Part shown: piece by piece, positions 13,306 through 26,425 of the stretch
How positions within the stretch are numbered: the first letter of the stretch is position 1
Layout: every line of letters begins with the position of its first letter
Origin: a virus
Length of the DNA stretch: 26,425 bases
Strand: one strand, 5' to 3'
IMG/VR virus record: IMGVR_UViG_3300005607_000424
Location: 1 to 26,425 of that record
Notes under the pieces: model-generated
Told to the model about the DNA's origin: nothing
What the model saw: only the letters and a program-made list of their open reading frames with translations
Database searches by the model: none
Position numbers and translations under genes: made by a program

Positions 13306-13977
13306 TCAGAACGGAATGTCATCGCCTCGCTCCCAATCGAAATCATCCGCGCGCGCGGCGAGGGACGTGCCGCCGATTTTCAATTCGGAAGGCCACAGAT
13401 TCTTTTTTCTCCCACGGCCGCTACCCCCCTTGCGGGCAGGCGCGGAAAACGAATCCTTGCCCTGTTTCTGGCCAAATGTGCCTATGTTCAGTCCCGGGGA
13501 ACGGACGGCCGTAACCTCCGCTCTTGGAAACGCGCGCTTGATCGCGCGGACCTGATCGCCGAACGCGTCGAGCGCGCGCGCCACCTCGTCTAGCGTCCAC
13601 ACCGCCCCGGCGCGGTCCTTGGCGACCGCCGCGGCTTCGTCGGCGGTGCGGACGATGGCGACGATTTCGCCGGTCGACGGGATGACGGTTTCCCACACCG
13701 CGGGCGACAGCGGTTGCGCGCCGGCGGCCGACGCGGCCTGGTCGAGCGCCGACCACGCGCGCGCCATTGCCTCGGCCTGGACACGGATCGCGTCGTCGCG
13801 TCCCGACGCGAGCGCGTCGTCGAGCCGGTCCTGCTGCGCTCGGAACCGGAGGGCGAGATCGGGAGGGACGAGCCGTGGCAAGCGGTCGATCCCCCACTTG
13901 CGCTCCATCGCGAGGGCGATCTCGTCGAGCCAGTCGATGGCCGCCCGGGCGAGGGCTGACGGGTCAGGCGCGCTCAC
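13306..13977 (-). CDS. Unknown phage protein, early operon
   Basis: 223 residues from a GTG at 13977 with a strong AGGAAGGGG 7 bases upstream. Residues 1-85 are helical (AIDWLDEIALAMERKWGIDRLPRLV), with the GIDRLPRLV text I associate with rhizobial phage proteins of no known function. Residues about 90-140 are an alpha/beta patch (ETVIPSTGEIVAIVRTADEAAAV). The C-terminal third is basic and Gly/Lys-rich, ending in acidic DDFDWERGDDIPF, like the acidic tip of ssDNA-binding proteins, which recruits partners. A DNA-replication accessory role is a guess. It starts just after the repeat-rich gap downstream of the primase-helicase. Confidence 0.6.
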   Translation of the reverse strand: MSAPDPSALARAAIDWLDEIALAMERKWGIDRLPRLVPPDLALRFRAQQDRLDDALASGRDDAIRVQAEAMARAWSALDQAASAAGAQPLSPAVWETVIPSTGEIVAIVRTADEAAAVAKDRAGAVWTLDEVARALDAFGDQVRAIKRAFPRAEVTAVRSPGLNIGTFGQKQGKDSFSAPARKGGSGRGRKKNLWPSELKIGGTSLAARADDFDWERGDDIPF

Positions 13978-13998
13978 GGTTCAACCCCTTCCTGCATG

Positions 13999-14031
13999 CG
14001 CGGCGCGCGCGCCCTCGCGCGCGCGCGCGCG
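13999..14031. repeat. Alternating CG tract
   Basis: Sixteen bases of uninterrupted (CG)8 at 14016-14031 plus GCGCGCGCG at 14003-14011. Such alternating purine-pyrimidine DNA can adopt Z-form or extrude as a hairpin. It lies in the 223-bp gap between the primase-helicase and the next gene, beside the repeat array. Confidence 0.6.
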
Positions 14032-14052
14032 TAGGGGGTATGGGGGTTCTCT

Positions 14053-14194
14053 TCTCCGCCGACTTCCGCAAACCTCCGCCAAGCAAAATCAATGACTTGC
14101 GTGGGGCATCTCCGCAGACTTCCGCAAACTTCCGCAGAACCTCCGCCAAGGAAAATCAATGACTTAGGAGGGTCTTTTCCGCCACCTCCGCCGA
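14053..14194 (-). repeat. Array A: 10-bp GCGGAAG-type repeats with two 16-bp boxes
   Basis: Read on the plus strand, 10-bp units occur as a run of three (14053-14082), a run of three plus one offset by a base (14109-14149), and two more (14175-14194): forms such as CTTCCGCAAA, CCTCCGCCAA, CTTCCGCAGA. Between the runs stand two copies of a box, AAATCAATGACTTGCG (14086-14101) and AAATCAATGACTTAGG (14153-14168). Periodicity of one helical turn argues for a bound protein. Lying right after the primase-helicase stop, it is a candidate replication origin or operator. Confidence 0.6.
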
Positions 14195-14200
14195 TTGCAG

Positions 14201-16405
14201 TCACAACCATTGCAGCACCTTTAGCCCCATGAGTTTCGTCCTCCGGTCGCACTCTTCGATCCCGATTACGCCGTTGTTCAACCAGTCCGCGATCAGGTCG
14301 GCGGCGGACGATTTGCTCATTCCGTATTGCCGCACGAGGTAGTGGCCGAGGTATCGCGAGCCGGCCTGCGGCGCGTGGCTGAACGGTGTCCCTTCCTTGA
14401 AGCGCCGGTCGACCTCCTTCAGGACTTCGCGCGCCTGAGCCATGGTGAAGCCGCTTTCGGCCGGCGCGGCCGGCTCGCTCTCGAGCTGCACAAGCAGCCC
14501 GCTCTCCTCGCGCACGTAGGTGTGCGCGTCGTGGTCGGCCTCGTCGTTCGCCTTGACGACGGCGCCGCGGACGATGCGCCCGCGCTCGAACGGGATCTGA
14601 AGCGTGTTGCAGATAGGGCGCGCGGTCTCGTCGTCGAGCTTCCAGAGCGCGTAGGCGAGACGGGCGCCGTCAACCAGCGCGGTGGTCCCGCGTATAGTCT
14701 CCCGCGCTTCGTCGCCGTCGGCGATGCGCATCATGCCGTCCTTGCGCATGTGATGCGTGAGCAGGACCGTCGCGCCGGTCGCGGTCGCGAGCTCGGCCAT
14801 CGCCGACCAAAGGAACTGCGCCGCCGCCGGATCGGCGTTCACGTCGGCGAGCACGAACGCCTGCAGCGGATCGATCACGACGAGCCGCAGGTCGGGCAGT
14901 TGGACCAGCTGGCGCTTGAGGTCGTCGAAGAACGGCGTGCGCGCGAGCGCCTTGCCGTTGGTCGCGATCAGCGGGCGCGGGCCGCCGGCGTCCGGAAGCG
15001 GAAGCACGATGAGCCGCTTCGGATGGCGCATCCGGCGGGCGTCGGGATCGATGCGATTGAGACGCCGGTGCACGGCGTCGAAGCTGTCCTCGGCTGTGAC
15101 CACCACGGCCGTGCCCTCGACGGCGATCCGTCCGCCGAGGATTTTCCTCGGCTGTTCGAGCCCGGCGACGCCGGCCGCGATCTGAAGCGCAAGATCGAGC
15201 GCGAGATAGCTCTTGCCGAGGCCGCCCATGGCGGCGACCAGCGCCGGGATGCCGAGCGGGATCGTGCCCCGGCAGAGCCACGCGATCGGCTTCGCCTCGC
15301 CGGCGTAGCGGTCGGCGGTCCATTGCAGGAGGTCGATCGTCGGCGGAGCGATGTCGTCGACGTTGTAAGCCGGATTGGGGATATTCCACTTCCGCCGCGC
15401 GCCTTCGATCATGCGCGCGAGGTCGCGGCGGGTCTCATCGACCGTCCATCCGGGGAGCGTGAGGCCCTCGGCCGCGATGAGGATTTCGGCGTCGGACAGC
15501 CCGCGCGAAACCCAGTACCCGACGAGCCGCAGGGTATGGTCGTGCCAGCGCCTGCCGGCGCGGATCGCGGCGATGCATGCGTCGACCGACAGGCCGCCGA
15601 TGAAAAGACCCGAAATTGTGCCCTCGGGCACAATTTCGGGTAGTTTTTCGGGTTCTTTAGTATTTTCAACTTGTTGCCTACTAGTGAGCTCTTTTCGCTC
15701 ACTAGTGAGCAGATCGGGTCTGCCCGCCTCGAAGGCCTCCGAAAGCCGCGCCATCGAATAGGCGGCCGGCCTGCCGTCCTGCGGCACGTGCGTCTCGGTC
15801 CTCTCGAGCACGCGGCCTTCCTTCGTCGGCCAGGCGACAGACCCGCCGAGCCGCAGCACGCGACCCGGGTTGACGACGGACGGATCGCCGCCGAGCGTGC
15901 GGGCGATCCTGCCGTTGAGCGCGCGGATCGCCGCGGCGTCGCGGCACGGCTCGGCGAGCCGCCACCACATCTGCGCGCGCAGGTGTGGGTATCGGCCGGT
16001 GACCACCGTCATCGTCGGCGGAACGCCGAGCTGCTTCGCGGCCGCGACCGCGGCGTGAACCACGTCGTCGTCGATATCGATCCAGGCGCACGGCGCGGCA
16101 AAGAAGTGGCCGTCCGATCCGCGCCGGTCTCGGTGCGCGTCCGGCCGGCGGAGCGCCGCGCCGACATAGACGTTGCATCCCGGCGTGCGGTTGAGCCCGG
16201 CGGCGCGCTCGGCGACCTCTTCCATCTTTTCCGGCGCGAACATCCGTGCGCACGAAAGCCTGCCGTTCTGCGGATCGGTCCACGCAAGCTCGATCAACCC
16301 GCCTTGCGCGCCGCCAATGTCGTCTCCGACGAGGTGCCTCAGATGCCGCAGCATCGCCTCGGGATCGGGATCGCGTATCGGCTCGACGTTCATGGGGAGC
16401 GGCAT
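14201..16405 (-). CDS. Bifunctional primase-helicase (RepB-like primase plus RepA/AAA_25 helicase)
   Basis: 734 residues from the ATG at 16405, which overlaps the HNH stop by one base (an ATG at 16393 is possible; neither has a clear Shine-Dalgarno). Residues about 15-230 match a RepB-type primase: LSCARMFAP, the acidic PCAWIDIDDD (105-114), and HLRAQMWWRL. A low-GC linker (233-262) follows, then a helical PriCT-like part (CIAAIRAGRRWHDHTLRLVGYW). Residues about 380-640 are a RepA-like hexameric helicase: Walker A AAMGGLGKS (391-399), Walker B LRLVVIDPL (507-515), HHMRKDG (551-557). The C-terminus looks like a winged helix (GMSKSSAADLIADWLNNGVIGI). It should start and drive phage replication. 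The linker DNA contains two perfect inverted repeats. Confidence 0.87.
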   Translation of the reverse strand: MPLPMNVEPIRDPDPEAMLRHLRHLVGDDIGGAQGGLIELAWTDPQNGRLSCARMFAPEKMEEVAERAAGLNRTPGCNVYVGAALRRPDAHRDRRGSDGHFFAAPCAWIDIDDDVVHAAVAAAKQLGVPPTMTVVTGRYPHLRAQMWWRLAEPCRDAAAIRALNGRIARTLGGDPSVVNPGRVLRLGGSVAWPTKEGRVLERTETHVPQDGRPAAYSMARLSEAFEAGRPDLLTSERKELTSRQQVENTKEPEKLPEIVPEGTISGLFIGGLSVDACIAAIRAGRRWHDHTLRLVGYWVSRGLSDAEILIAAEGLTLPGWTVDETRRDLARMIEGARRKWNIPNPAYNVDDIAPPTIDLLQWTADRYAGEAKPIAWLCRGTIPLGIPALVAAMGGLGKSYLALDLALQIAAGVAGLEQPRKILGGRIAVEGTAVVVTAEDSFDAVHRRLNRIDPDARRMRHPKRLIVLPLPDAGGPRPLIATNGKALARTPFFDDLKRQLVQLPDLRLVVIDPLQAFVLADVNADPAAAQFLWSAMAELATATGATVLLTHHMRKDGMMRIADGDEARETIRGTTALVDGARLAYALWKLDDETARPICNTLQIPFERGRIVRGAVVKANDEADHDAHTYVREESGLLVQLESEPAAPAESGFTMAQAREVLKEVDRRFKEGTPFSHAPQAGSRYLGHYLVRQYGMSKSSAADLIADWLNNGVIGIEECDRRTKLMGLKVLQWL
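15609..15640. repeat. Perfect 15-bp inverted repeat inside the primase-helicase gene
   Basis: Arms CCCGAAATTGTGCCC (15609-15623) and its exact complement (15626-15640) around TC. On the minus (coding) strand the hairpin is followed by TCTTTTC, on the plus strand by TAGTTTTTC, so it looks like a bidirectional terminator although it lies inside an open reading frame, in the linker between primase and helicase domains. Confidence 0.75.
15680..15710. repeat. Second inverted repeat in the primase-helicase linker
   Basis: ACTAGTGAGC (15680-15689) pairs perfectly with GCTCACTAGT (15697-15706) across 7 bases; the right half is itself part of a 14-bp palindrome, GCTCACTAGTGAGC (15697-15710). It lies 40 bp from the first inverted repeat in the same AT-richer linker. 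Confidence 0.7.
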
Positions 16406-16815
16406 CAGCAGTCGTCGTCTCCACCGAAGCCGTAAGGCCAAAGGATCGCCCTGCCGATCGGATCGGCGATCCTTTTGCCGTCGAGCTGCGCAGCGAACAG
16501 GTCGCCGCACGCCCGTTCCGTCCGCCGTCGCGCAGCGATCCCCTGCGCCCGGGACCGGGCGTCCCATGCATTGTGGCAGCGCTGGCAAAGCGCGCGCAGG
16601 TTACGCGGATCGTTGTTCTCCGGCTGGTGATCGAGGTGCGCGACCGTAAGCACGACCTTCGCACCGGTGATCGGGTGCGGCTCGCCATGCCTGGCCCGGC
16701 AATCGGGAAATTGCGGCGTACCCTCGCAGCGCCAACCGGCGCGCTCTTTTGTCGCGCGACTGATGCGTGTCCAGTCGCGCGGGTAGCGATGTTTATTTTC
16801 GATGCGGATCGGCAT
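16405..16815 (-). CDS. HNH endonuclease
   Basis: 136 residues: IENKHRYPRDWTRISRATKERAGWRCEG, then VVLTVAHLDHQPENNDPRNLRALCQRCHNAWDAR. The AHLDH (first His pair), the Asn of NNDPRNL and the CQRCH segment form the HNH beta-beta-alpha-metal core; with CEG and DCRAR they supply zinc cysteines. Unlike packaging HNH proteins, which sit beside the terminase, this is inside the replication operon, so recombination or host-DNA cleavage is more likely. Its ATG overlaps the upstream stop by one base, as its stop does the primase ATG. Confidence 0.85.
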   Translation of the reverse strand: MPIRIENKHRYPRDWTRISRATKERAGWRCEGTPQFPDCRARHGEPHPITGAKVVLTVAHLDHQPENNDPRNLRALCQRCHNAWDARSRAQGIAARRRTERACGDLFAAQLDGKRIADPIGRAILWPYGFGGDDDC

Positions 16816-17051
16816 CAGTGCATCCGATCCATATTTTTGTCTTCAATGCGCTTCTCGAATTGTTCAAGAAAAGTGAGAAGCGTGACAAGGAGAGGATAGA
16901 AGACGTTGAAGTACGCAATTCGGTAATCTGTTTCGTCAAATTCCGTCTTGCAGTACCGCCACGCTTTCCGCATGACATTGATGCGGCGGACGATCAATGC
17001 AGACATCCTGTCCCATTCGATCTCATTCGGGTCGACAATCCTTTTGCTCAT
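16815..17051 (-). CDS. Small unknown helical protein
   Basis: 78 residues from the ATG at 17051; GAGGAGG lies 7 bases upstream and the ATG overlaps the AAA gene stop (ATGA). MSKRIVDPNEIEWDRMSALIVRRINVMRKAW is followed by a hydrophobic helix, IAYFNVFYPLLVTLLTFLEQF, and a charged tail. The hydrophobic stretch is long enough to be either a buried helix or one membrane segment. AT-richer than its neighbours. No family recognised; position after the AAA ATPase suggests an adaptor or inhibitor but nothing in the sequence proves it. Confidence 0.6.
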   Translation of the reverse strand: MSKRIVDPNEIEWDRMSALIVRRINVMRKAWRYCKTEFDETDYRIAYFNVFYPLLVTLLTFLEQFEKRIEDKNMDRMH

Positions 17052-17962
17052 GATGCCCTCCTCATCGGCCAGACCATTGCGCCAAGCGCCATAACCGCAT
17101 CAGGCGACGCCCACAGCGGCGGCGGCACGTATTCGGGCGCGGGCGCTGTCGCTGCGATGATGGGCGCGAAAAACGAAACCGGATCGTCCACCGATCGCCC
17201 CGTCCTCGGGCCGACGACCAGCGCGCGTTTCATGCCCTCCATCAGCGCGCGAAGCAGCGCCGGCGATGCGCCTTCCGTCATGGTCACAAGCATGTCGACA
17301 TCCTCGTCGGTCGGTTCGTAGGGCGCGGCGTAGCGGCGGATGATCGCGAAGCGCTCGTCGGGGCCGGGAAGGTCAATCGAGATCTGCATGTCGAACCGCC
17401 GCCACAGCGCCGGATCGAGGAAGTCCTGCCGGTTCGTCGCGGCGAGCGCGATGCCGTTGAACCGCTCGATGCGGCGGAGGAGCACGTTGAGCGAGTTTGC
17501 GCGCTCGACCGATGCGCCCTGGTCGTTCATCCGCCGGCCGCCGATCGCGTCGACCTCGTCGAAGAAGACGACGACCTTGCCCTCGGTCTTCGACATCGCG
17601 TCGAAAAGCTGACCGATGTTGCTTCCGGTAGCACCGAGCCACCTATCGATCAGGCTTTCGGACCGGATGCACGCGAGCGGAAGGCCGAGCCGCGCGGCGA
17701 AGTGGTGAGCCCACGTTGTCTTGCCGCAACCCGGCGGACCATAGAGCAGCGCGGTGCGGCGCGGCTTCAAGCCGGCGGCGGCGAGATCGTCGGCGAGCCT
17801 GATCTCCGTCATCCACTCGAACAACGCCGCGCGCGGCCCTGGCGCCAGGATCGGCTCTTCGGCCTCGTGCGGCATGAGCACGTCGGCGAATTTCTCGAGT
17901 GCGGTTTTGACCGCGATCTCGTCGAGACGGACCGCTTGAACGGAAGACTGGTAGCGTCTCAT
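17048..17962 (-). CDS. AAA+ ATPase (FtsH/CDC48-like AAA domain)
   Basis: 304 residues from the ATG at 17962; GAGGAG lies 8 bases upstream and it overlaps the GcrA-like stop (ATGA). Walker A GPPGCGKTT (75-83), Walker B VVFFDEVDAIGG (131-142), sensor 1 in AATNRQD (Asn177), arginine fingers WRRFD (188-189), and a C-terminal helical lid (LVTMTEGASPALLRALMEGM). This is a single classical-AAA module with about 70 N-terminal residues, too short for a protease. Such phage AAA proteins are remodelers; loading or unloading replication or recombination complexes is the likely job. The C-terminus has an extra Pro-rich hydrophobic tail. Confidence 0.85.
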   Translation of the reverse strand: MRRYQSSVQAVRLDEIAVKTALEKFADVLMPHEAEEPILAPGPRAALFEWMTEIRLADDLAAAGLKPRRTALLYGPPGCGKTTWAHHFAARLGLPLACIRSESLIDRWLGATGSNIGQLFDAMSKTEGKVVVFFDEVDAIGGRRMNDQGASVERANSLNVLLRRIERFNGIALAATNRQDFLDPALWRRFDMQISIDLPGPDERFAIIRRYAAPYEPTDEDVDMLVTMTEGASPALLRALMEGMKRALVVGPRTGRSVDDPVSFFAPIIAATAPAPEYVPPPLWASPDAVMALGAMVWPMRRAS

Positions 17963-18420
17963 GCGGCGCTCTCCTCGGTCATGATCCGATACGCGACGCG
18001 CACGTGCCTGGCGCAATACGGATAGGGTTCTATCGCGGGCGATCCGCAGTACCGGAAGCTGGGCAGCTTCGGATCGCCAAGAGGCCAGCGGCAATGATGC
18101 GGAAGAAGTTCGGCGCACGTGACGCCGCCGTTCGGCGCGTCGGCCGCGTCATCGTCGGCGGCCGGACGAAGCAGAACGAGCTTGCCGCGCTGTTTGAACG
18201 CCGGGGCCGATTGTCGAACGGGCTTCGGCGCTGCGGCTTGCCGCGTGCTCTGTTTTCGCTTCGCAAGGCCGAGACGGTGCGCCTTCCCGATGATTGCGTT
18301 GCGGGAAAAGCGCATCCCGAATTTGTCGTTGATCGCCTTGGCGCACTTCGCCGCCGACCATCCCGCGTCCCAGCACTCGCGCAGATAACCGATGGTATCG
18401 TCCGACCAGTGGCTGATCAC
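17959..18420 (-). CDS. GcrA-family cell-cycle regulator homologue
   Basis: 153 residues from a GTG at 18420 overlapping the upstream stop (GTGA). Residues 4-52 are the GcrA helix-turn-helix: WSDDTIGYLRECWDAGWSAAKCA and FSRNAIIGKAHRLGL. Residues 100-145 are the conserved C-terminal sigma-70-binding part: CAELLPHHCRWPLGDP, FRYCG, PYCARHVRVAY. Length is close to chromosomal GcrA. GcrA works with sigma-70 at promoters carrying GANTC methylated by CcrM and is specific to Alphaproteobacteria. A phage copy may reprogram host cell-cycle promoters or switch on phage genes; that is inference. Confidence 0.9.
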   Translation of the reverse strand: MISHWSDDTIGYLRECWDAGWSAAKCAKAINDKFGMRFSRNAIIGKAHRLGLAKRKQSTRQAAAPKPVRQSAPAFKQRGKLVLLRPAADDDAADAPNGGVTCAELLPHHCRWPLGDPKLPSFRYCGSPAIEPYPYCARHVRVAYRIMTEESAA

Positions 18421-19007
18421 GGTTCACCCCCCTCCTTGTCGTCGCCGGGCTTTTCCGATTTCTTCTTCGGCTTCCGCCGGCGCCATGCCTCCGGCACCTC
18501 CATCCCGTCCGTGCCTGTTTCGGCGCACCATCCTTCGTCCCACGCGGCGCGGCGCGGATCGTCGGCCATGTACGGATTGTCGATGACGCGCTTTCCTTCG
18601 CGCGCCGCGGCGCGCCCTGCGGCTCGCGCAGCTTCGATGTCCAAAGTCTGATCGACGGTCTCGGGCGCGGGCGGCGTGGACGCGTCCGCCGGATCGGGCG
18701 GCTCCGGGATTTCGCCCATGAGCCGCCTGCGCGCGGCCTCGCCGAGCGGCGTGCCGCCGAGCATGCCGAGGGCGGCGCGGTACATTTCGCAGAGCGCCTG
18801 ATACTCGCGCCGCTCGAACGGCGACATGCGCCGCTCGCGAAGCATCTGGTTGAGCACCTTCACGTCAAGGCCGGCGTTGCGAGCGCTGTTCTTTGCCTGC
18901 CTGATCTGATCGGCGATGCGACGCTTCTCCTCGTCCAGTCTCTCGATTTCCTCGACGAACTGGACGAGCAGGTCGGCCGCCGCGCCGCCGTTCCGTCGCG
19001 CGTCCAT
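18417..19007 (-). CDS. GapR-like (DUF2312) protein fused to an Rmf/CrpP-like domain
   Basis: 196 residues from the ATG at 19007, 2 bases after the previous stop. Residues about 10-85 match GapR: LLVQFVEEIERLDEEKRRI, ADQIRQAKNSARNAGLDVKVL, a coiled coil that encircles overtwisted DNA. Residues 100-125 are a Pro/Ala/Asp linker. Residues 125-170 match the ribosome modulation factor/CrpP fold: ARAAGRAAAREGK, NPYMADDPRRAAWDEGW. The tail is Lys-rich. It joins a nucleoid-associated and a ribosome-associated module in one chain. Encoded directly before the GcrA-like gene with a GTGA overlap. Confidence 0.8.
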   Translation of the reverse strand: MDARRNGGAAADLLVQFVEEIERLDEEKRRIADQIRQAKNSARNAGLDVKVLNQMLRERRMSPFERREYQALCEMYRAALGMLGGTPLGEAARRRLMGEIPEPPDPADASTPPAPETVDQTLDIEAARAAGRAAAREGKRVIDNPYMADDPRRAAWDEGWCAETGTDGMEVPEAWRRRKPKKKSEKPGDDKEGGEP

Positions 19008-19009
19008 GA

Positions 19010-19645
19010 TCAGAACTCCGTTTCGAGCGCCGGATCGGACGCCGCGGCCTTGGCCGCCGGCGGCGGAACGTGCGCCGCGGCTTGCGGGGACGGCGCCGGC
19101 GCGCCGGTCCTGCCGATCTCGGACTCGTCCACGGGCGAAGCGTCGGGCAGTTCGGCGGGGCGGTCGGCCCACTTCACGATTTCGAGTCGCGGGCGGTAGT
19201 TCGTGCCGAACTTGTCCTTCATCGCGTCCGAGCCGGTGCATGCCACGACCGGAACCTTGCCGCGGTTCTCGGCCTTGCCGCTCTGCTCCTCGAACGCTGC
19301 ATAGAGATCGCGGATTGCGTTTGAAAGGTGGATCGAAGCGGAAGAGAATTCGACGGCGCCGCCGAAGAACTTCTGACTGAAAGCCATGACGACGAAGCCG
19401 CGCTTGTATGCCGGGTCGGGCTGCTGCGCGATGCGGTCGAGGGTCGGGTCGATGACGCGATCGGGCGCCTGACCCTCACGGAACAAGAACCAGCCGGTGC
19501 GGATGTTCTTCAGGTCCAGCAAGAAAGTCGGGCGCGGAATTTCCTGGTCGCCGCCATCCGCTCCCCTGACAAACCACTTGTCCGACTTGGCGTTGTATTT
19601 GACGTAGGGCTTGATCGTGCCGGAACCGCCGATGTGAAGAGGCAT
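19010..19645 (-). CDS. Conserved phage early protein, possible ssDNA-binding protein
   Basis: 211 residues from the ATG at 19645; AAGGAG sits 8 bases upstream, the best ribosome-binding site of this operon, implying high expression. MPLHIGGSGTIKPYVKYNAKSDKWFV begins a beta-rich region (GWFLFREGQAPDRVID, FVVMAFSQKFFGG) that reads like an OB-type fold, followed by a helix with SNAIRDLYAAFEE and a disordered Pro/Ala tail ending in acidic LETEF. High output, beta-barrel core and acidic tip would suit an ssDNA-binding protein, and the PD-(D/E)XK nuclease upstream would be a natural partner. I recognise it only as a common unnamed protein of alphaproteobacterial phages. Confidence 0.6.
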   Translation of the reverse strand: MPLHIGGSGTIKPYVKYNAKSDKWFVRGADGGDQEIPRPTFLLDLKNIRTGWFLFREGQAPDRVIDPTLDRIAQQPDPAYKRGFVVMAFSQKFFGGAVEFSSASIHLSNAIRDLYAAFEEQSGKAENRGKVPVVACTGSDAMKDKFGTNYRPRLEIVKWADRPAELPDASPVDESEIGRTGAPAPSPQAAAHVPPPAAKAAASDPALETEF

Positions 19646-19674
19646 TGCGTTTTCTCCTTTCCTGTTGATCGTTG

Positions 19675-20457
19675 CTAGAAACCGAAGACTTCCCGTCCGG
19701 CCGCGCGCGCGGCCGGTTCGGACCACCAGAACGAGTCGAAGTCGGGGACGATCAGGCCGGCGAGCTCCTGCGGATCGTTCGACACCGCGAGAAACCGGCC
19801 GAGCGAAAGCGCGATGACGCGAAGCGCCGCGAGATGCCGGCGCACGTCGTCGCCGGACATTTCATAGACGGTGACCTGCCGCTTGTCGGTCTTGCCGGGC
19901 GCGGGCTTCGCATAGGCGAAGCGCATCCCGAAATTGCCGTGCGCCGATGCATAGACGGCGCCTTGGCGGCCGTGGGCATCGCTGATCTGCGAGGGAAAGC
20001 GCTCGGTCGTCTTGAGGTCGACGATCAGGCCGTGTTCGGAGAAGCGCCAGTCGATGAAGCCGACGATGGGCACCGGCACGTCATCGAGGCGGATTTCGAC
20101 CCGGTGCTGATAGGCATCGGGAACGCCGTATTGCCTAAGCTCGGCGAGCGCGCCGCGCACCCAGCCGGCGATCTTCTTGCGCTCGTCTTCGCGGCGCGGA
20201 TCGCCGCTTAGAGCGGTTTCCCGCGCGAATTCGCGTTCGGCTCTGTCGATGCAGTCCTCGACCGGAAGGCGCGGGTTGCTCAGGCCAAGATGCACGCCGA
20301 ATTCGACGGCCTTGCCGCGCGCGGCGATGATGCTTGCGGGCAGGCGCCTGCCGAGCAGACGCTCCATGATCCACAGCGCCGGCTCGGCGGCCCAGAGGTT
20401 CAGCGACGAGGCCGAGAGGTGATCGATGCCGTGACGTTCGAAGGCGCGCGTGTTCAT
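19675..20457 (-). CDS. PD-(D/E)XK superfamily nuclease (RecB/Cas4-like)
   Basis: 260 residues from the ATG at 20457, overlapping the HTH gene stop (ATGA). The start HLSASSLNLWAAEPALWIMERLLG and ARGKAVEFGVH is the usual N-terminus of PDDEXK_1 phage exonucleases. Catalytic residues: Glu121 in HRVEIRL, Asp136 in GFIDWRF, Asp147-X-Lys149 in IVDLKTTE, with Gln157 after. It probably resects DNA ends for recombination, working with the candidate ssDNA-binding protein encoded next. No cysteines for an iron-sulfur cluster are seen, unlike Cas4 and AddB. Confidence 0.85.
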   Translation of the reverse strand: MNTRAFERHGIDHLSASSLNLWAAEPALWIMERLLGRRLPASIIAARGKAVEFGVHLGLSNPRLPVEDCIDRAEREFARETALSGDPRREDERKKIAGWVRGALAELRQYGVPDAYQHRVEIRLDDVPVPIVGFIDWRFSEHGLIVDLKTTERFPSQISDAHGRQGAVYASAHGNFGMRFAYAKPAPGKTDKRQVTVYEMSGDDVRRHLAALRVIALSLGRFLAVSNDPQELAGLIVPDFDSFWWSEPAARAAGREVFGF

Positions 20458-20708
20458 CGGCGCCCTCTTCTCGTTCGGAGACCTCCGATTGAAGTTTCCT
20501 CGAGCGACCGAAGCCACTCGCGAAGGGCGTCGACGCGGTAGAGCACCTTCCGGCCTATCTTCGCGTATGGAGGCCCAATTCGGCGGCGAGCCCACCGCGT
20601 CAGCGTGTCCGCCGACACTCCGATCTCGGACGCCGCGCGATCTCTCGTGAGCCACCCGTGGAGGAGCGGCGGCGTGACCGTCGCTTCGGCCGTCTGTTGT
20701 CCATCCAT
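20454..20708 (-). CDS. HTH protein, excisionase/AlpA-like, first gene of the early operon
   Basis: 84 residues from the ATG at 20708 with GGGAG 8 bases upstream (an ATG at 20753 would add 15 residues). LHGWLTRDRAASEIGVSADTLTRWARRRIGPPYAKIGRKVLYRVDALREWL is a winged helix-turn-helix of the MerR/excisionase type: HTH, then the wing with PPYxKxGRxVxYR. Proteins like this act as Xis or as activators of int. As first gene of the leftward operon and next to the 10-bp repeat array at 20777-20826, it may bind those repeats. Confidence 0.8.
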   Translation of the reverse strand: MDGQQTAEATVTPPLLHGWLTRDRAASEIGVSADTLTRWARRRIGPPYAKIGRKVLYRVDALREWLRSLEETSIGGLRTRRGRR

Positions 20709-20776
20709 GTAACCATCTCCCGTCCTGCGCGGATTGGAATCGCGACGATCCAAACACAGGAGCGGCGGGAGGCCTT

Positions 20777-20826
20777 AGGCGGAAACAGGCCGAAACAGGC
20801 GGAAACAGGTGGAAACAGGCGAAAAG
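20777..20826 (+). repeat. Array B: five 10-bp AGGCGGAAAC repeats
   Basis: AGGCGGAAAC at 20777, AGGCCGAAAC at 20787, AGGCGGAAAC at 20797, AGGTGGAAAC at 20807 and the decayed AGGCGAAAAG at 20817, exactly head to tail. One-turn spacing puts all copies on one DNA face. It sits in the control gap between the divergent early operon and the immunity genes, so an operator for the XRE repressor or the HTH protein is likely. Confidence 0.75.
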
Positions 20827-20853
20827 GAAATCGAACTCACGCCTGTTTTTGAA

Positions 20854-20869
20854 AAATCAAACGCTTAGG
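20854..20869 (+). repeat. Box copy near array B
   Basis: AAATCAAACGCTTAGG matches the AAATCAATGACTTAGG box of 14153-14168 at both ends with three changed central bases. It stands 27 bp from array B, as the other copies stand beside or between arrays. Confidence 0.4.
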
Positions 20870-20984
20870 CTGGGGATTCCAGGCGGCGTCATGCGAAGCG
20901 GCAAAAAGGACTCGACTCCGCCCTTTTAAGAACGTAAATAGAACATATCCGTTAACGAAATGGTCAACGATGGGGGGCGGCAGC
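20870..20984. promoter_or_regulatory. Divergent control region of early and immunity genes
   Basis: AT-rich stretch, unusual for this window, between leftward and rightward transcription units. On the minus strand TTGACC (20967-20962) followed by an AT-rich stretch could be a leftward promoter. GTTAAC (20951-20956) and GTCAAC (20963-20968) form an imperfect dyad with 6 bases between, a possible repressor half-site pair. The -10 match is poor. Confidence 0.35.
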
Positions 20985-21698
20985 ATGATGCTCGACGTGG
21001 AATATCCGTGCTTCGGCTCGGGCGAGCCGGCGAGGCTGTCAGCCAATGCGATCAGGCGCCTCGGGGCCGATCTCCGGCAGCGGCTCTTCGGCCATGCCGC
21101 GCGGCCGTTCGAGCCGGCGAACCTGTTCCGCCGGACGGCCCGCCTCCGCGTCAACGGCCGGCCGCTCCGGATCGTGTGGGACGCTGAGCACGCGGTGCAC
21201 GACGAGGCCGGCGAACCCGTGCTCGGCGTCTGCGAACACGATCCGGAGGGGCCGGCAACGGTCATGATCAGCCTGAATGCCGAGCTGCTCGGCGGTCGGC
21301 CCGAGATGCTGCGCTCGACGGCGGCGCACGAGCTTGGCCACGCGATCTTCGACATGCCGGCGGCGGTGGCGAAGGGAGCGGCGCGCGCCTTCCGCAGCGG
21401 CGCGATTGCGGTGCGGGACGCCGCGCCGATCGATTGGCGGGAATGGCGCGCCGACGAGTTCATGGGCGCGTTTCTGGCGCCGCGGCGGCAGCTGGCGCGA
21501 GCGTTCGCCCGCGAGGCTTCCGCGATCGGCGCAGCGATCCGATGGAAGGTGATCGACGAAATCCCGACGCCCTACGTCGCGGCAAACGAGGCAGGTTGGC
21601 CGGCGATCGATGCGATCGCCGGCGCGCTGGCCGAAGAGTTCGGCGTGACGAGCGCCTTCATCGGCGTGCGCCTCCGCAAGTACGGGCTTGTTGGCTGA
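20985..21698 (+). CDS. ImmA/IrrE-family metallopeptidase
   Basis: 237 residues from the ATG at 20985, with a G-run (GGGGGGCGG) as ribosome-binding site; an ATG at 20970 lacks one. The zinc site HELGH is at 115-119 (STAAHELGHAIFD), and the third ligand is probably Glu153 in EWRADEFMGAFLAP, matching the ExxAxxFAxxLL pattern. N-terminal helix and VNGRPLRIVWD strand are usual. In ImmA/ImmR elements the peptidase cleaves the repressor upon damage and so induces the element. The adjoining XRE gene begins 11 bases later, after a perfect AAGGAGG. Gene order peptidase-then-repressor is reversed relative to ICEBs1. Confidence 0.88.
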   Translation: MMLDVEYPCFGSGEPARLSANAIRRLGADLRQRLFGHAARPFEPANLFRRTARLRVNGRPLRIVWDAEHAVHDEAGEPVLGVCEHDPEGPATVMISLNAELLGGRPEMLRSTAAHELGHAIFDMPAAVAKGAARAFRSGAIAVRDAAPIDWREWRADEFMGAFLAPRRQLARAFAREASAIGAAIRWKVIDEIPTPYVAANEAGWPAIDAIAGALAEEFGVTSAFIGVRLRKYGLVG

Positions 21699-21708
21699 AG
21701 GAGGCGCC

Positions 21709-21990
21709 ATGGCATTCGGCTTGACGGTCAGGGCGAAACGGACCGAGCAGGGCATCGGCCTCAACGACTTCGCCGAGCGGCTCGGCGTATCGCCGGCCTA
21801 TTGGTCGCGCGTCGAGCGTGAACAGGAAAAGCCGCCGCGCGACGAGCTTGTCGAGCGCGCCGCGGCGATCCTGGGCGTGCGCATGGACGATCTGTTCGTC
21901 GAGGCGGGGCGCCTGCCGCCGGACATGAGAAGAGATCTGAAGCGCGTAGTCCAGACCTACAGGCGCATGAAGCAACTGCCGCCGAAGTAA
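21709..21990 (+). CDS. XRE-family repressor
   Basis: 93 residues from the ATG at 21709; AAGGAGG starts right after the ImmA-like stop. FGLTVRAKRTEQGIGLNDFAERLGVSPAYWSRVEREQEKPPRDELVERAAAILG is a textbook HTH_3 domain (residues about 4-62), followed by a helical tail (RDLKRVVQTYRRMKQL) that could dimerise or serve as cleavage target. Expected role: repressor that keeps the prophage silent, with the operators in the divergent gap at 20777-20984. Confidence 0.85.
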   Translation: MAFGLTVRAKRTEQGIGLNDFAERLGVSPAYWSRVEREQEKPPRDELVERAAAILGVRMDDLFVEAGRLPPDMRRDLKRVVQTYRRMKQLPPK

Positions 21991-22075
21991 TCCAGGGAAT
22001 TACTTGCCGCGCAGACTTGCTCTATTCGAAACGCGAGGCAGTCTGGACTTGCTCACGCCGCAGAGGGTTGCATCG

Positions 22076-22699
22076 ATGCCGCCGCGCTGTCTTCTTTCTC
22101 TTCTCGAAACCGCCGCCAGGTGGTCCGTGTCCGCATTCGACGTTGTCACATGGGCGCTCGAAGGGCTTCTGTCTCTCTCCATTGCATCGCCGCCGGTCCG
22201 GATCGGACCTGCCGAATTCCTATCGGGTGTCGTCGATGTAGAGCCGACCTATGTTCTCCCGCTTTTTCGGCGCGACGGAGCGCCCATGCAATCCGTTTCG
22301 ATCCGGTGTGTAAGGAATAGCGACAAAAAGCCTTGCTGGATCGTCGATCCCGTCGAAGGGATCATCATCACCGCCGGGGACGTTTTCGTTCGTCGCGCAG
22401 AAATCGAGCGCTTCGAGAAGGATCACCGGATATTCGACGGAGATAAATCGCTTCCAGCAACCCGGCGCCCTGCGGGGGCTCAGCGGCCTGGGCCGGGCGT
22501 TCAACCCCGCCATGACTGGGATTCATTCTACGCGGCGCTCGTTCGCCGCATTCACGAGCACGGCCTGCCGTCCACGCAGGCCGAACTGGTACGGGAGATG
22601 CGCGATTGGTTCGAGCAACGGGACGATGAAAGGGCGCCGGACGAGAGTACCATTGCTCGCAAGATCAGGGTCGTCTGGCACGAGCTGCATCGATCATAG
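22076..22699 (+). CDS. Unknown phage protein with C-terminal helical DNA-binding-like part
   Basis: 207 residues from the ATG at 22076 (AGAGGG 8 bases upstream); a TTG at 22004 would add 24 residues. The N-terminus, CLLSLLETAARWSVSAFDVVTWALEGLLSLSI, resembles an adaptor HTH, then a beta-rich middle (YVLPLFR, ITAGDVFVRRAEIERFE). After a Pro/Arg linker, residues about 145-207 hold DWDSFYAALVRRIHEHGLPS-type text, LVREMRDWFEQRDDERAPDESTIARKI, a pattern seen in other alphaproteobacterial mobile-element proteins of unknown function. It ends 14 bases from the convergent integrase stop. Confidence 0.65.
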   Translation: MPPRCLLSLLETAARWSVSAFDVVTWALEGLLSLSIASPPVRIGPAEFLSGVVDVEPTYVLPLFRRDGAPMQSVSIRCVRNSDKKPCWIVDPVEGIIITAGDVFVRRAEIERFEKDHRIFDGDKSLPATRRPAGAQRPGPGVQPRHDWDSFYAALVRRIHEHGLPSTQAELVREMRDWFEQRDDERAPDESTIARKIRVVWHELHRS

Positions 22700-22713
22700 C
22701 TGCATGCTTTTTA

Positions 22714-23976
22714 TCATGCGGCGCGATCGGAAGCGGGCGATGTCGATACAAGCCTCAACCTCGGGCGCAGCAGCTCGCCCACGGCATCCGCTCCATGACG
22801 GACAGGGTCGTCCAATAGGTGAGCGTAGCGTTGGGTCGTCTTCGTGCTGTTATGGCCGAGTAGCTTTCCGATCATGGGCAGCGACATGCCGCCGCTCGCC
22901 AGCAGCGACGCGAATGTGTGCCTCAGATCATGGACCCGGACGCCTTCGAGTCCGGCGATTTTTCGAATGTCGGCCCAGAAGCGCCGGATATCCTCGATGG
23001 GCTTGCCTTCCACGGCGCCGGGAAAGAGCCATTCGGCGTCGGCGGGAAGAGCGGCGAGTCGCGCGCGGATGAAGGCGACAGCGGCGCGCGAGAGCGGAAC
23101 GCGGTGCATCTTCCTTTGCTTGGTCGTGGAGGCCTTCTTCGTCCAGATCGCAAGATCGAGGTTGAATTCCTCAGGCCGCGCAGTCAGCGCCTCGCCCTTC
23201 CGTGCGCCTGTGAGCAGGATGAACCGCACGACGTCGGCGGCGTGCTGGTTCTTGTGTTCGTCGATGGCGGACGCAAGGCGATCGATCTGGTCGAGCGTGA
23301 GGAATACCTCGCGTTCGTTCTCCACGTTGCGATGGAAGGCAGCGGCCGGATTGTCGGCGCGCATCTGCCATCGCCTGACTGCGAGATTGAACATCTTGCG
23401 CACCACCTCGCCGACACGGTTTGCGCGGATCGGCGTCGGGCGCGGCTTTGCGAAGCCGCGTTTGCGCTTGTATTTCGGATTTTCCTTGCGTGGGCGGGCG
23501 CGGCCGGCGGCGATCTTTGCGAGCAGCTTCGACACGTCCGCTTCGGCGATCTCGGCGACCTTGCGCGACCCCCATTCCGGCTCGACCAGCTTGCGGAGCA
23601 TCGAAATCTGATCCTTGCCGTTGCGCTTCGAGAGCGTCGGCACATGCTGTTCGATATAGCGGTCGATCAACTCGCGTACCGTTGGCGCGGAGCGCAGCTC
23701 CTGGCGCTTGACGAGCGGATCGACGCCTGCGTCGATGCTGCGCTTGAGTTCTTTCGCCCGTTCGCGCGCGGCCGTGACCGACCAGTCGGGCCATGAACCG
23801 ATCGTGAGATAGCGGCGCCGGCCTGCGATCCGGTAGTCGAGAAAGAACGCTTTCGATCCGGACGGTTTCACGCACAACCCGAATCCGGCGACGTCGTCGT
23901 CGCGGATGTGCAAATCGCGCTCGCCTTGAGGCGACGGCGCCATCTTCGCCAAGCGTTCGGTAAGATGAGCCTTCAT
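22714..23976 (-). CDS. Tyrosine integrase (P4/DUF4102 type)
   Basis: 420 residues from the ATG at 23976 (a GTG at 23997 would add 7; neither has a good Shine-Dalgarno). Residues about 1-90 are the DUF4102 arm-binding domain (LCVKPSGSKAFFLDYRIAGRRRYLTIG), residues 98-220 the core-binding domain with a basic insert (RPRKENPKYKRKRGF). The catalytic set is complete: Arg259 in TGARKGE, Lys about 286-289, His349 and Arg352 in HDLRHTF, His375 in LLGH, Tyr384 in TTQRYAH. It should recombine phage DNA into the 3' half of tRNA-fMet, whose remnant begins about 315 bp upstream of its start. Confidence 0.95.
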   Translation of the reverse strand: MKAHLTERLAKMAPSPQGERDLHIRDDDVAGFGLCVKPSGSKAFFLDYRIAGRRRYLTIGSWPDWSVTAARERAKELKRSIDAGVDPLVKRQELRSAPTVRELIDRYIEQHVPTLSKRNGKDQISMLRKLVEPEWGSRKVAEIAEADVSKLLAKIAAGRARPRKENPKYKRKRGFAKPRPTPIRANRVGEVVRKMFNLAVRRWQMRADNPAAAFHRNVENEREVFLTLDQIDRLASAIDEHKNQHAADVVRFILLTGARKGEALTARPEEFNLDLAIWTKKASTTKQRKMHRVPLSRAAVAFIRARLAALPADAEWLFPGAVEGKPIEDIRRFWADIRKIAGLEGVRVHDLRHTFASLLASGGMSLPMIGKLLGHNSTKTTQRYAHLLDDPVRHGADAVGELLRPRLRLVSTSPASDRAA

Positions 23977-24060
23977 GCCTGTGCCGTTCGCTGCCACGCC
24001 TCGACTGAGGCGCGGTGTTCAACGGCGCGCAAGATGCTCGATGTGACCTCGAGGGGCTAA

Positions 24061-24110
24061 GGCGGAATAGGGCGGAAAGGGGCGGAAAGGGGCGGAAAGG
24101 GAGGGAACGG
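24061..24110 (+). repeat. Array C: five 10-bp GGCGGAAAGG repeats
   Basis: GGCGGAATAG at 24061, GGCGGAAAGG at 24071, 24081 and 24091, GAGGGAACGG at 24101, strictly head to tail. Location between int and the attachment core makes arm-type integrase or excisionase sites the first hypothesis. The core GCGGAA is shared with arrays A and B. Confidence 0.8.
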
Positions 24111-24175
24111 GGAGCGCAAACTTGATCGTGCGGCTCGCCAATAGCTCGCCCCGCGAAACGCTTTCATCGACCCAC

Positions 24176-24215
24176 GAATGCGCCTGAATGCGCTCGAATG
24201 CGGCTTGATGCCGGC
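24176..24215 (+). repeat. Second 10-bp repeat array beside the attachment core
   Basis: GAATGCGCCT at 24176, GAATGCGCTC at 24186, GAATGCGGCT at 24196 and the weaker TGATGCCGGC at 24206. A different motif from array C but the same exact 10-bp period; together they would give two classes of site in one attachment arm. Confidence 0.6.
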
Positions 24216-24246: not shown

Positions 24247-24262
24247 CCTAAGTCATTGATCG
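24247..24262 (-). repeat. Box copy beside the attachment core
   Basis: On the minus strand CGATCAATGACTTAGG. Its last 14 bases are identical to the box at 14155-14168, 10 kb away. It lies about 30 bp from the tRNA remnant. Confidence 0.6.
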
Positions 24263-24290: not shown

Positions 24291-24339
24291 TAGGCTCATA
24301 ACCTGAAGGTCGTAGGTTCAAATCCTACCCCCGCAACCA
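24291..24339 (+). tRNA. 3' half of initiator tRNA-Met(CAT): attachment site junction (attL/attR)
   Basis: The sequence from the anticodon stem on is a tRNA: anticodon loop CTCATAA with CAT at 24297-24299, T arm GTAGG-TTCAAAT-CCTAC (24312-24328), acceptor 3' strand CCCCGCA, discriminator A and encoded CCA (24337-24339). It matches the initiator type; its partner 5' strand would be CGCGGGG with the C1:A72 mismatch, but no such sequence or D arm lies upstream. The identity starts at about AGGCTCATAA, so the crossover lies in the anticodon stem-loop. The 5' half, with a phage-supplied 3' half, should be at the other prophage end. Not a functional gene by itself. Confidence 0.85.
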
Positions 24340-24343
24340 AATT

Positions 24344-25829: not shown

Positions 25830-25869
25830 CGTTTTAATCGAAACAGGATTTAACTCGTTTCAGCGCTAC
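25826..25869. terminator. Inverted repeat between convergent genes
   Basis: GTAGCG (25826) pairs with CGCTAC (25864-25869), and GAAAC with GTTTC inside, giving a broken stem that overlaps both stop codons. The T-rich GTTTTAATC lies in the left arm. Weak bidirectional terminator at best. Confidence 0.4.
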
Positions 25870-26210
25870 GCCGCCGTGGTCGCCACCCCGTCAAGCCGCA
25901 CGCGCACGATGGTCGCGCCGTTTCCGGCAGCCTCGATGGCGGTGCCGATCGGATAGCGGCCGGCGCCGGGGACGTTGACCTGCTTGGCGGCGTCGTCCCA
26001 GGCCACCGGGTCGCCGGCGGCGATGACGGCGCTCGCGAGCTTCGGCAGATCGAAGACGCCCTCGGTCGCAATCGCGATTGTCTCTCCAGCTGCAGCCGTC
26101 TTGGTGGCAACGCCAAACAAGGCACCGATCACCATAGCGTCGCCCGAGGTCACACCGCCAACGGGCGTCACGACCGTGATTATGCGGCCTTCCTGAATGT
26201 AGTTCTTCAT
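25866..26210 (-). CDS. DUF2190 capsid protein of a second phage
   Basis: 114 residues from the ATG at 26210 (MKNYIQEGRIITVVTP), AAAGGA 8 bases upstream. It has the same features as the DUF2190 protein at 603-953: an N-terminal KNYIQEG, IGALFGVATKTAA, the motif GVFDLPKL, DPVAWDDAAK and a final RVRLDG strand, but low overall identity, so it is another lineage rather than a recent duplicate. It follows the gpW-like gene by 2 bases. In lambda-like phages portal and protease genes usually lie between these two, so this is either a different order or a deletion. Confidence 0.85.
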   Translation of the reverse strand: MKNYIQEGRIITVVTPVGGVTSGDAMVIGALFGVATKTAAAGETIAIATEGVFDLPKLASAVIAAGDPVAWDDAAKQVNVPGAGRYPIGTAIEAAGNGATIVRVRLDGVATTAA

Positions 26211-26212
26211 CG

Positions 26213-26425
26213 TCACGTTCCTTTCGATGAGCTGATGCGAACCTGGTTGACGCGCGGCGCGGAGGCCGCGGCGATGCGCCGGTCGAGGTCGGCGAGCGCT
26301 GCGGCCATCTCGGCGTCGCTCGCATAGGTGACGCGGCGGCCCTCGTATTCGACCGTGCGCACGCCGGCGAAGCGCGCCTTCAAGAGCGCTTCGCGCATGG
26401 CTTCGAGTTCGGGCACGCTTGCCAT
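26213..26425 (-). CDS. gpW-like head-tail joining protein of a second phage (at window edge)
   Basis: 70 residues, MASVPELEAMREALLKARFAG, then VRTVEYEGRRVTYASDAEMAAALADLDRRIAAAS and a short tail (VNQVRISSSKGT). The two helices around a VEYxGRRVTY hairpin are the gpW/head-tail-joining pattern, also seen at 4545-4754. The ATG is the last base triplet of the window, so a start further upstream cannot be excluded and the ribosome-binding site is not visible. It shows that a second phage head module, also leftward, begins here. Confidence 0.75.
   Translation of the reverse strand: MASVPELEAMREALLKARFAGVRTVEYEGRRVTYASDAEMAAALADLDRRIAAASAPRVNQVRISSSKGT

Follow-up and report, generated by a model that had tools for sequence, protein, structure and literature searches.

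Architecture of the locus

The DNA analysed comprises positions 1 to 26,425 of IMG/VR record IMGVR_UViG_3300005607_000424, and this whole stretch of 26,425 nt is referred to as the window. It holds a prophage in which the genes for a primase-helicase, an excisionase-like HTH protein and a tyrosine integrase are each accompanied by an array of short direct repeats (Table 1). A sequence resembling a tRNA 3' end lies beyond the integrase gene and is probably the attachment core; scanning the window for tRNAs returned no complete tRNA gene. Past the core, at 25866-26425, stands what looks like a second DUF2190/gpW-like gene pair, possibly part of another prophage or remnant that adjoins.

Table 1. 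Features of the window, with strand and basis of assignment; loci of relatives carry L numbers
Feature	Position	Strand	Basis or remark
223-aa protein after element A, C-terminus DDIPF (SSB-type tip)	13306..13977	-	read from translation
GC-rich hairpin ending element A	13998..14030	-	z -2.3
Conserved C-rich box of element A, AACCCCCATACCCCC	14034..14048	-	sole window match at <=2 mismatches; also conserved 3' of homologous primase genes
Array A, iteron-like, with nine GCGGAR units grouped into blocks of 3, 4 and 2	14054..14191	-	homologous clusters 3' of primase genes
IHF-consensus site AATCAATGACTTG within array A	14087..14099	+	exact match
IHF-consensus site AATCAATGACTTA within array A	14154..14166	+	exact match; same element in relatives
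Primase-helicase, RSF1010 RepA-like AAA_25 helicase with C-terminal winged-helix-like domain	14201..16588	-	Pfam AAA_25 1e-38; PDB RepA 1g8y 3e-14
RdfS-like winged HTH protein, excisionase-like and proposed to bind B and C	20454..20708	-	HTH_17 1.5e-9; phrog_66; PDB profiles; fold
Array B	20777..20826	+	five units at 20779-20824, consensus GGCGGAAACA, upstream of HTH gene; HTH orthologues have a conserved array upstream
IHF-consensus site beside array B	20855..20867	+	exact match
LexA-type SOS box GAAC-N7-GAAC, in the gap holding B	20930..20944	+	also in L127, L129, L134, L135
Tyrosine integrase with Arm-DNA-bind_3 domain	22714..23997	-	Pfam
Array C	24061..24110	+	five units at 24062-24107, between int and attachment core; relatives also have it upstream of int, in the same place
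Array D, GAATGCG units every 10 bp, candidate arm-type sites of Int	24173..24212	+	similar repeats in loci L127, L134
IHF-like site near core, one mismatch to consensus	24248..24260	-	TAAGTCATTGAT at 24249-24260
tRNA 3'-end-like sequence, probable attachment core	24292..24340	+	read from sequence; same beside int in L134, L135, L127

Arrays A, B and C had been pointed out in a sequence-only reading of this DNA, and we recovered all three where it had placed them. When exact 6-mers occurring three times at 10-bp intervals were counted, the window gave four clusters and dinucleotide shuffles an average of 0.015 (at most 1 in any of 200), while the other spacings from 7 to 16 bp together yielded a single cluster. 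As an isolated word GCGGAA is not enriched (43 observed, 38.8 expected), and its frequency was consequently dropped as a sole signal. The arrays indeed share GCGGAA-like units near 10 bp, yet the assertion that these are exactly 10-bp units does not extend to A: on the + strand its units, written [C/T]TCCGC, start at 14054, 14064 and 14074, at 14110, 14120, 14130 and 14141, and at 14177 and 14186, with one step of 11 bp, one of 9 bp and the remainder of 10 bp. The fourth cluster, array D, lies at 24175 between array C and the attachment core and had been overlooked. With respect to a scattering of such arrays in host intergenic DNA, which would have spoken against that reading, GCGGAA-N4-GCGGAA-N4-GCGGAA was absent from 11 of 12 alphaproteobacterial genomes carrying a related integrase, so that within this group it is no widespread repeat of host intergenic DNA.

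Three exact IHF-consensus sites were found in the window against 0.13 expected, two of them in A and one beside B, with none elsewhere. The LexA-type box in the gap holding B is kept in four relatives, and the prophage may thus be SOS-inducible.

A conserved element follows primase-helicase genes

Scanning IMG/VR for the GCGGAA triple pattern uncovered arrays next to genes for Prim-Pol/AAA_25 primase-helicases. Most A-type clusters were overlooked when exact 6-mer triples served as the sole test, because their spacing varies. A second set of 48 loci was recovered through a primase peptide pattern whose query alignment held some members first found via arrays, and a cluster was taken to be at least four units in 120 bp. 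In 32 of these 48 loci the densest such cluster falls within the 1.3 kb that lie 3' of the primase gene, and in none of them outside this stretch, though the stretch accounts for just 18% of the sequence. A dense cluster is missing in a third of the loci, and in some, other genes stand between primase and cluster.

Array A is part of an element, here called element A, that is situated 3' of genes for Prim-Pol/RepA-like primase-helicases and is made up of direct repeats of the GCGRAAGT type, a C-rich box and a hairpin. In 34 of 59 loci AACCCCC(C)RTACCCCC, or a sequence close to it, comes after the repeats; used alone as a search key, the box returned mostly unrelated matches, many apparently in coding sequence, and is nonspecific by itself. 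A hairpin after the box is present in 29 elements at the same position, with a mean z of -2.8 compared to -0.16 for controls, and it often holds an inverted repeat unit. In alphaproteobacterial A elements exact IHF-consensus sites are strongly enriched, with 13 in 7.3 kb versus 8 in 301 kb.

Primase-helicases occur with GCGGAAGT iterons or with TTCCAACC iterons, and in L373, L307, L309 and L331, which represent few lineages and have no match to the profile of the C-terminal domain, box and hairpin are found 93-165 bp after the gene together with other repeats, TTCCAACC-like or different. In Rhizobium phage RHph_Y3_1, 8 of 12 CGTTCCC/GGGAACG words fall in the gap after the primase/helicase gene.

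Two further observations concern the repeats around such genes. In L307, L309, L373 and L385 the C-rich box, again 3' of primase homologues, accompanies repeats of another family (TTCCAACC, spaced near 10 bp). In L007, L066, L023 and similar loci, other types of primase-helicase, including DUF927, have GCGGAA arrays beside them whose linkers differ (GCGGAACGGT, GCGGAACAGT, GCGGAATATA).

The primase-helicase itself combines several modules. An N-terminal Prim-Pol domain is present in the homologues L026, L049 and L066, and the C-terminal domain was modelled with pLDDT >92 over its folded part, which is predicted to be winged-helix-like; a fold search with this domain gave generic winged-helix matches only and no convincing single match. 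For the 223-aa protein encoded after the element no Pfam or PHROG family was found. Its tip resembles the C-terminus of a single-strand binding protein, and in many loci the element is followed by a protein of similar size.

Element A as a candidate replication origin

Based on these comparisons, array A is most likely a set of origin-type iterons that the primase-helicase would read. The RepA-homologous helicase, the winged-helix-like C-terminal domain and the stem-loop precedent of pRN1 together make an iteron-type origin the simplest reading. Plasmid pRN1 cannot replicate without a stem-loop 3' of its prim-pol replication gene, and the study's authors suggest that some phages are alike in this (PMC4234260). 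In both cases a hairpin downstream of a gene for a primase-helicase with a winged-helix domain is conserved in structure more than in sequence (PMC4234260); here too the structure of the stem-loop is kept while its sequence varies. In contrast to pRN1, the helicase in the window is of the AAA_25/RSF1010 RepA-like and not of the SF3 type, and element A adds iterons, IHF sites and the C-rich box.

Clustered direct repeats beside the initiator gene that are conserved across relatives are the mark of iteron origins, and element A displays this arrangement. Iterons are also known from RSF1010 oriV/RepA and from phage P4 alpha/ori, and the P4 alpha initiator has a winged-helix domain. The resemblance to RSF1010 thus covers the RepA-like helicase as well as the iterons, whereas sequence and spacing of the iterons differ from RSF1010 and P4, and the primase-helicase of the window is a single fused protein. 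In a literature search that covered few subscription journals, no described origin of this primase-helicase class was found.

Mechanistically, the iterons of A would be read by the C-terminal winged-helix domain of the primase-helicase, the IHF sites would bend the DNA, and priming may start at the C-rich box and hairpin. In one complete phage, GC skew was uninformative and gave no indication of the element.

Could element A instead be a transcription-control region, operator or terminator, of the downstream SSB-like operon? It does lie between two co-oriented genes and possesses a hairpin. In most elements, however, no T-run follows this hairpin, and multiple iterons, exact IHF sites in the alphaproteobacterial elements and linkage to a type of primase are more origin-like, so we consider a role restricted to transcription control unlikely. 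A cos or pac site was also considered and provisionally set aside, since A is located approximately 6.5 kb from the terminase small-subunit-like gene.

Arrays B and C as putative operators of an RdfS-like excisionase

Arrays B and C have a common extended motif ending in GGCGGAAACRG. To compare them across phages we used 22 integrase representatives with less than 75% identity to each other. Similarity between B and C of the same locus averaged 20.5, compared to 10.3 for permuted pairs (sd 0.88; reached in 0 of 5000 permutations), from which we conclude that B and C co-evolve; a good B-C match is missing in about 9 of the 22 representatives. The motif differs by lineage, being GGCGGAAACR, GGCAGTGACC, GGGCGCAAACGG or others, and B and C shift jointly, the trace expected of one trans-acting protein reading both sites. 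In relatives, arrays recur at a similar position upstream of the HTH gene and also upstream of int. B and C are thereby direct repeats with a period of one helical turn, C at att and B at a presumed phage promoter, whose position was deduced from gene starts.

The gene beside B encodes a plausible reader. Its product matches Pfam HTH_17 (1.5e-9), with additional weak excisionase matches, falls into PHROG phrog_66, annotated as 'excisionase and transcriptional regulator', and matches the PDB profiles of RdfS (8dgl) and lambda Xis. Congruent with this, the predicted structure has the RdfS excisionase as its best solved match (rmsd 1.0 Å over 51 columns, 37% identity), and the protein is thus a winged-HTH protein of the Xis/RdfS type. 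B and C are best read as putative operators of this RdfS-like excisionase. With every helical turn it would occupy a further unit, in head-to-tail order; on C, in the interval between int and core, it would promote excision and possibly act on the int promoter, while on B, its own promoter, it would exert autoregulation.

The two-site layout has precedents in RdfS and Apl. RdfS of ICEMlSymR7A is a winged-HTH excisionase, and among solved structures it is nearest to the window protein. It binds its own promoter and, upstream of intS, attP (PMC11963761), at sites without an apparent consensus motif (PMC11963761). The window differs in having clear, conserved 10-bp GGCGGAAACR units, and in belonging to a phage and not an ICE. 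Apl and other recombination directionality factors have their sites at att and early promoters, as direct repeats spaced by one helix turn (PMC7498355), and phage 186 Apl and P2 Cox are dual excisionase/regulators that bind such repeats cooperatively (PMC7498355). The HTH protein of the window, however, belongs to another protein branch, and the arrangement in the genome is different, as array B sits 5' of the excisionase gene itself.

An alternative is that the integrase and not the HTH protein binds B and C, as arm-type sites, with Int repressing the HTH promoter. Int indeed carries an arm-binding domain, C is located where arm sites can lie, and the similarity of the B/C motif follows the identity of the arm domain too (partial 0.41). 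It follows HTH identity slightly better (partial 0.52), a difference that is suggestive only, as HTH and Int specificity are not fully separable. In addition, the separate array D adjoining the core is a better candidate for Int arm sites, and the precedents of RdfS and Apl fit the two-site layout, rendering the integrase an improbable reader of B and C. That B is the operator of the XRE/ImmA immunity pair is suggested by its placement in a divergent gap adjoining the ImmA-like gene, yet we deem it very improbable, given that its motif is common to C at int and that in relatives the HTH orthologues, too, are preceded by B-type arrays at much the same distance.

Array A probably belongs to a separate system

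Among the five phages in which A and B were both readable, A-B scores within the same phage were 8-11, against a cross-phage background of 9.4; same-phage A-C scores lay in this range too, while B-C scores reached 23-26. A elements of related phages, on the other hand, strongly resemble each other. Furthermore, A drifts on its own: its unit is GCGAAG in L126, L127, L130 and L131, a drift from GCGGAG, while B and C of L127 still hold GCGGAA. In a Methylocystis prophage B and C are GGGCGCAAACGG-like and A is GCGGAACC-like, and in the prophages of the L147 and L151 genomes A is likewise independent of B and C.

The sequence-only reading had envisaged in-phase, cooperative binding of one protein. 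For B and C this finds support in the extended motif and the locus-by-locus co-variation, whereas for A it does not, the same-phage scores being at background. That a single phage protein acts on all three arrays and so couples replication, immunity and recombination, as that reading had suggested from their GCGGAA-like units near 10-bp spacing, is accordingly very improbable, since A is no nearer to the B or C of its own phage than background and drifts independently, and since A-type clusters follow primase genes while B and C follow HTH and int genes. The dissimilarity of A to its own B and C, and its separate drift, instead call for two binders. The ingredient common to A and B is more likely the host IHF sites than one phage protein.

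Taken as a whole, the explanation that we favor, and hold to be probable if by no means secure, is that the three arrays are two different binding systems which share GCGGAA by coincidence, B and C as excisionase operators and A as an origin-type element. Presence, conservation and position of the arrays were established computationally, as was the co-variation of B with C and not with A, whereas the identity of either binder, excision, autoregulation and origin function are inferred.

Implications for the phage family

A repeat pattern in one genome has thus become two testable systems. B and C belong to a known type, and for RdfS-like excisionases, whose sites in a characterised ICE had no apparent consensus, they offer a consensus motif. 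Element A is the more interesting part, as phages that carry this primase-helicase may have their replication origin there. More tentatively, and with the chances slightly against it, phages with Prim-Pol/RepA-like primase-helicases may share a modular origin 3' of the gene, consisting of iterons that differ by lineage, a C-rich box that hardly varies and a hairpin often holding an inverted iteron, in which the C-terminal winged-helix domain would set iteron specificity while box and hairpin would serve the conserved primase core. Such a box-plus-hairpin core with swappable iterons predicts the protein domain that chooses the origin.
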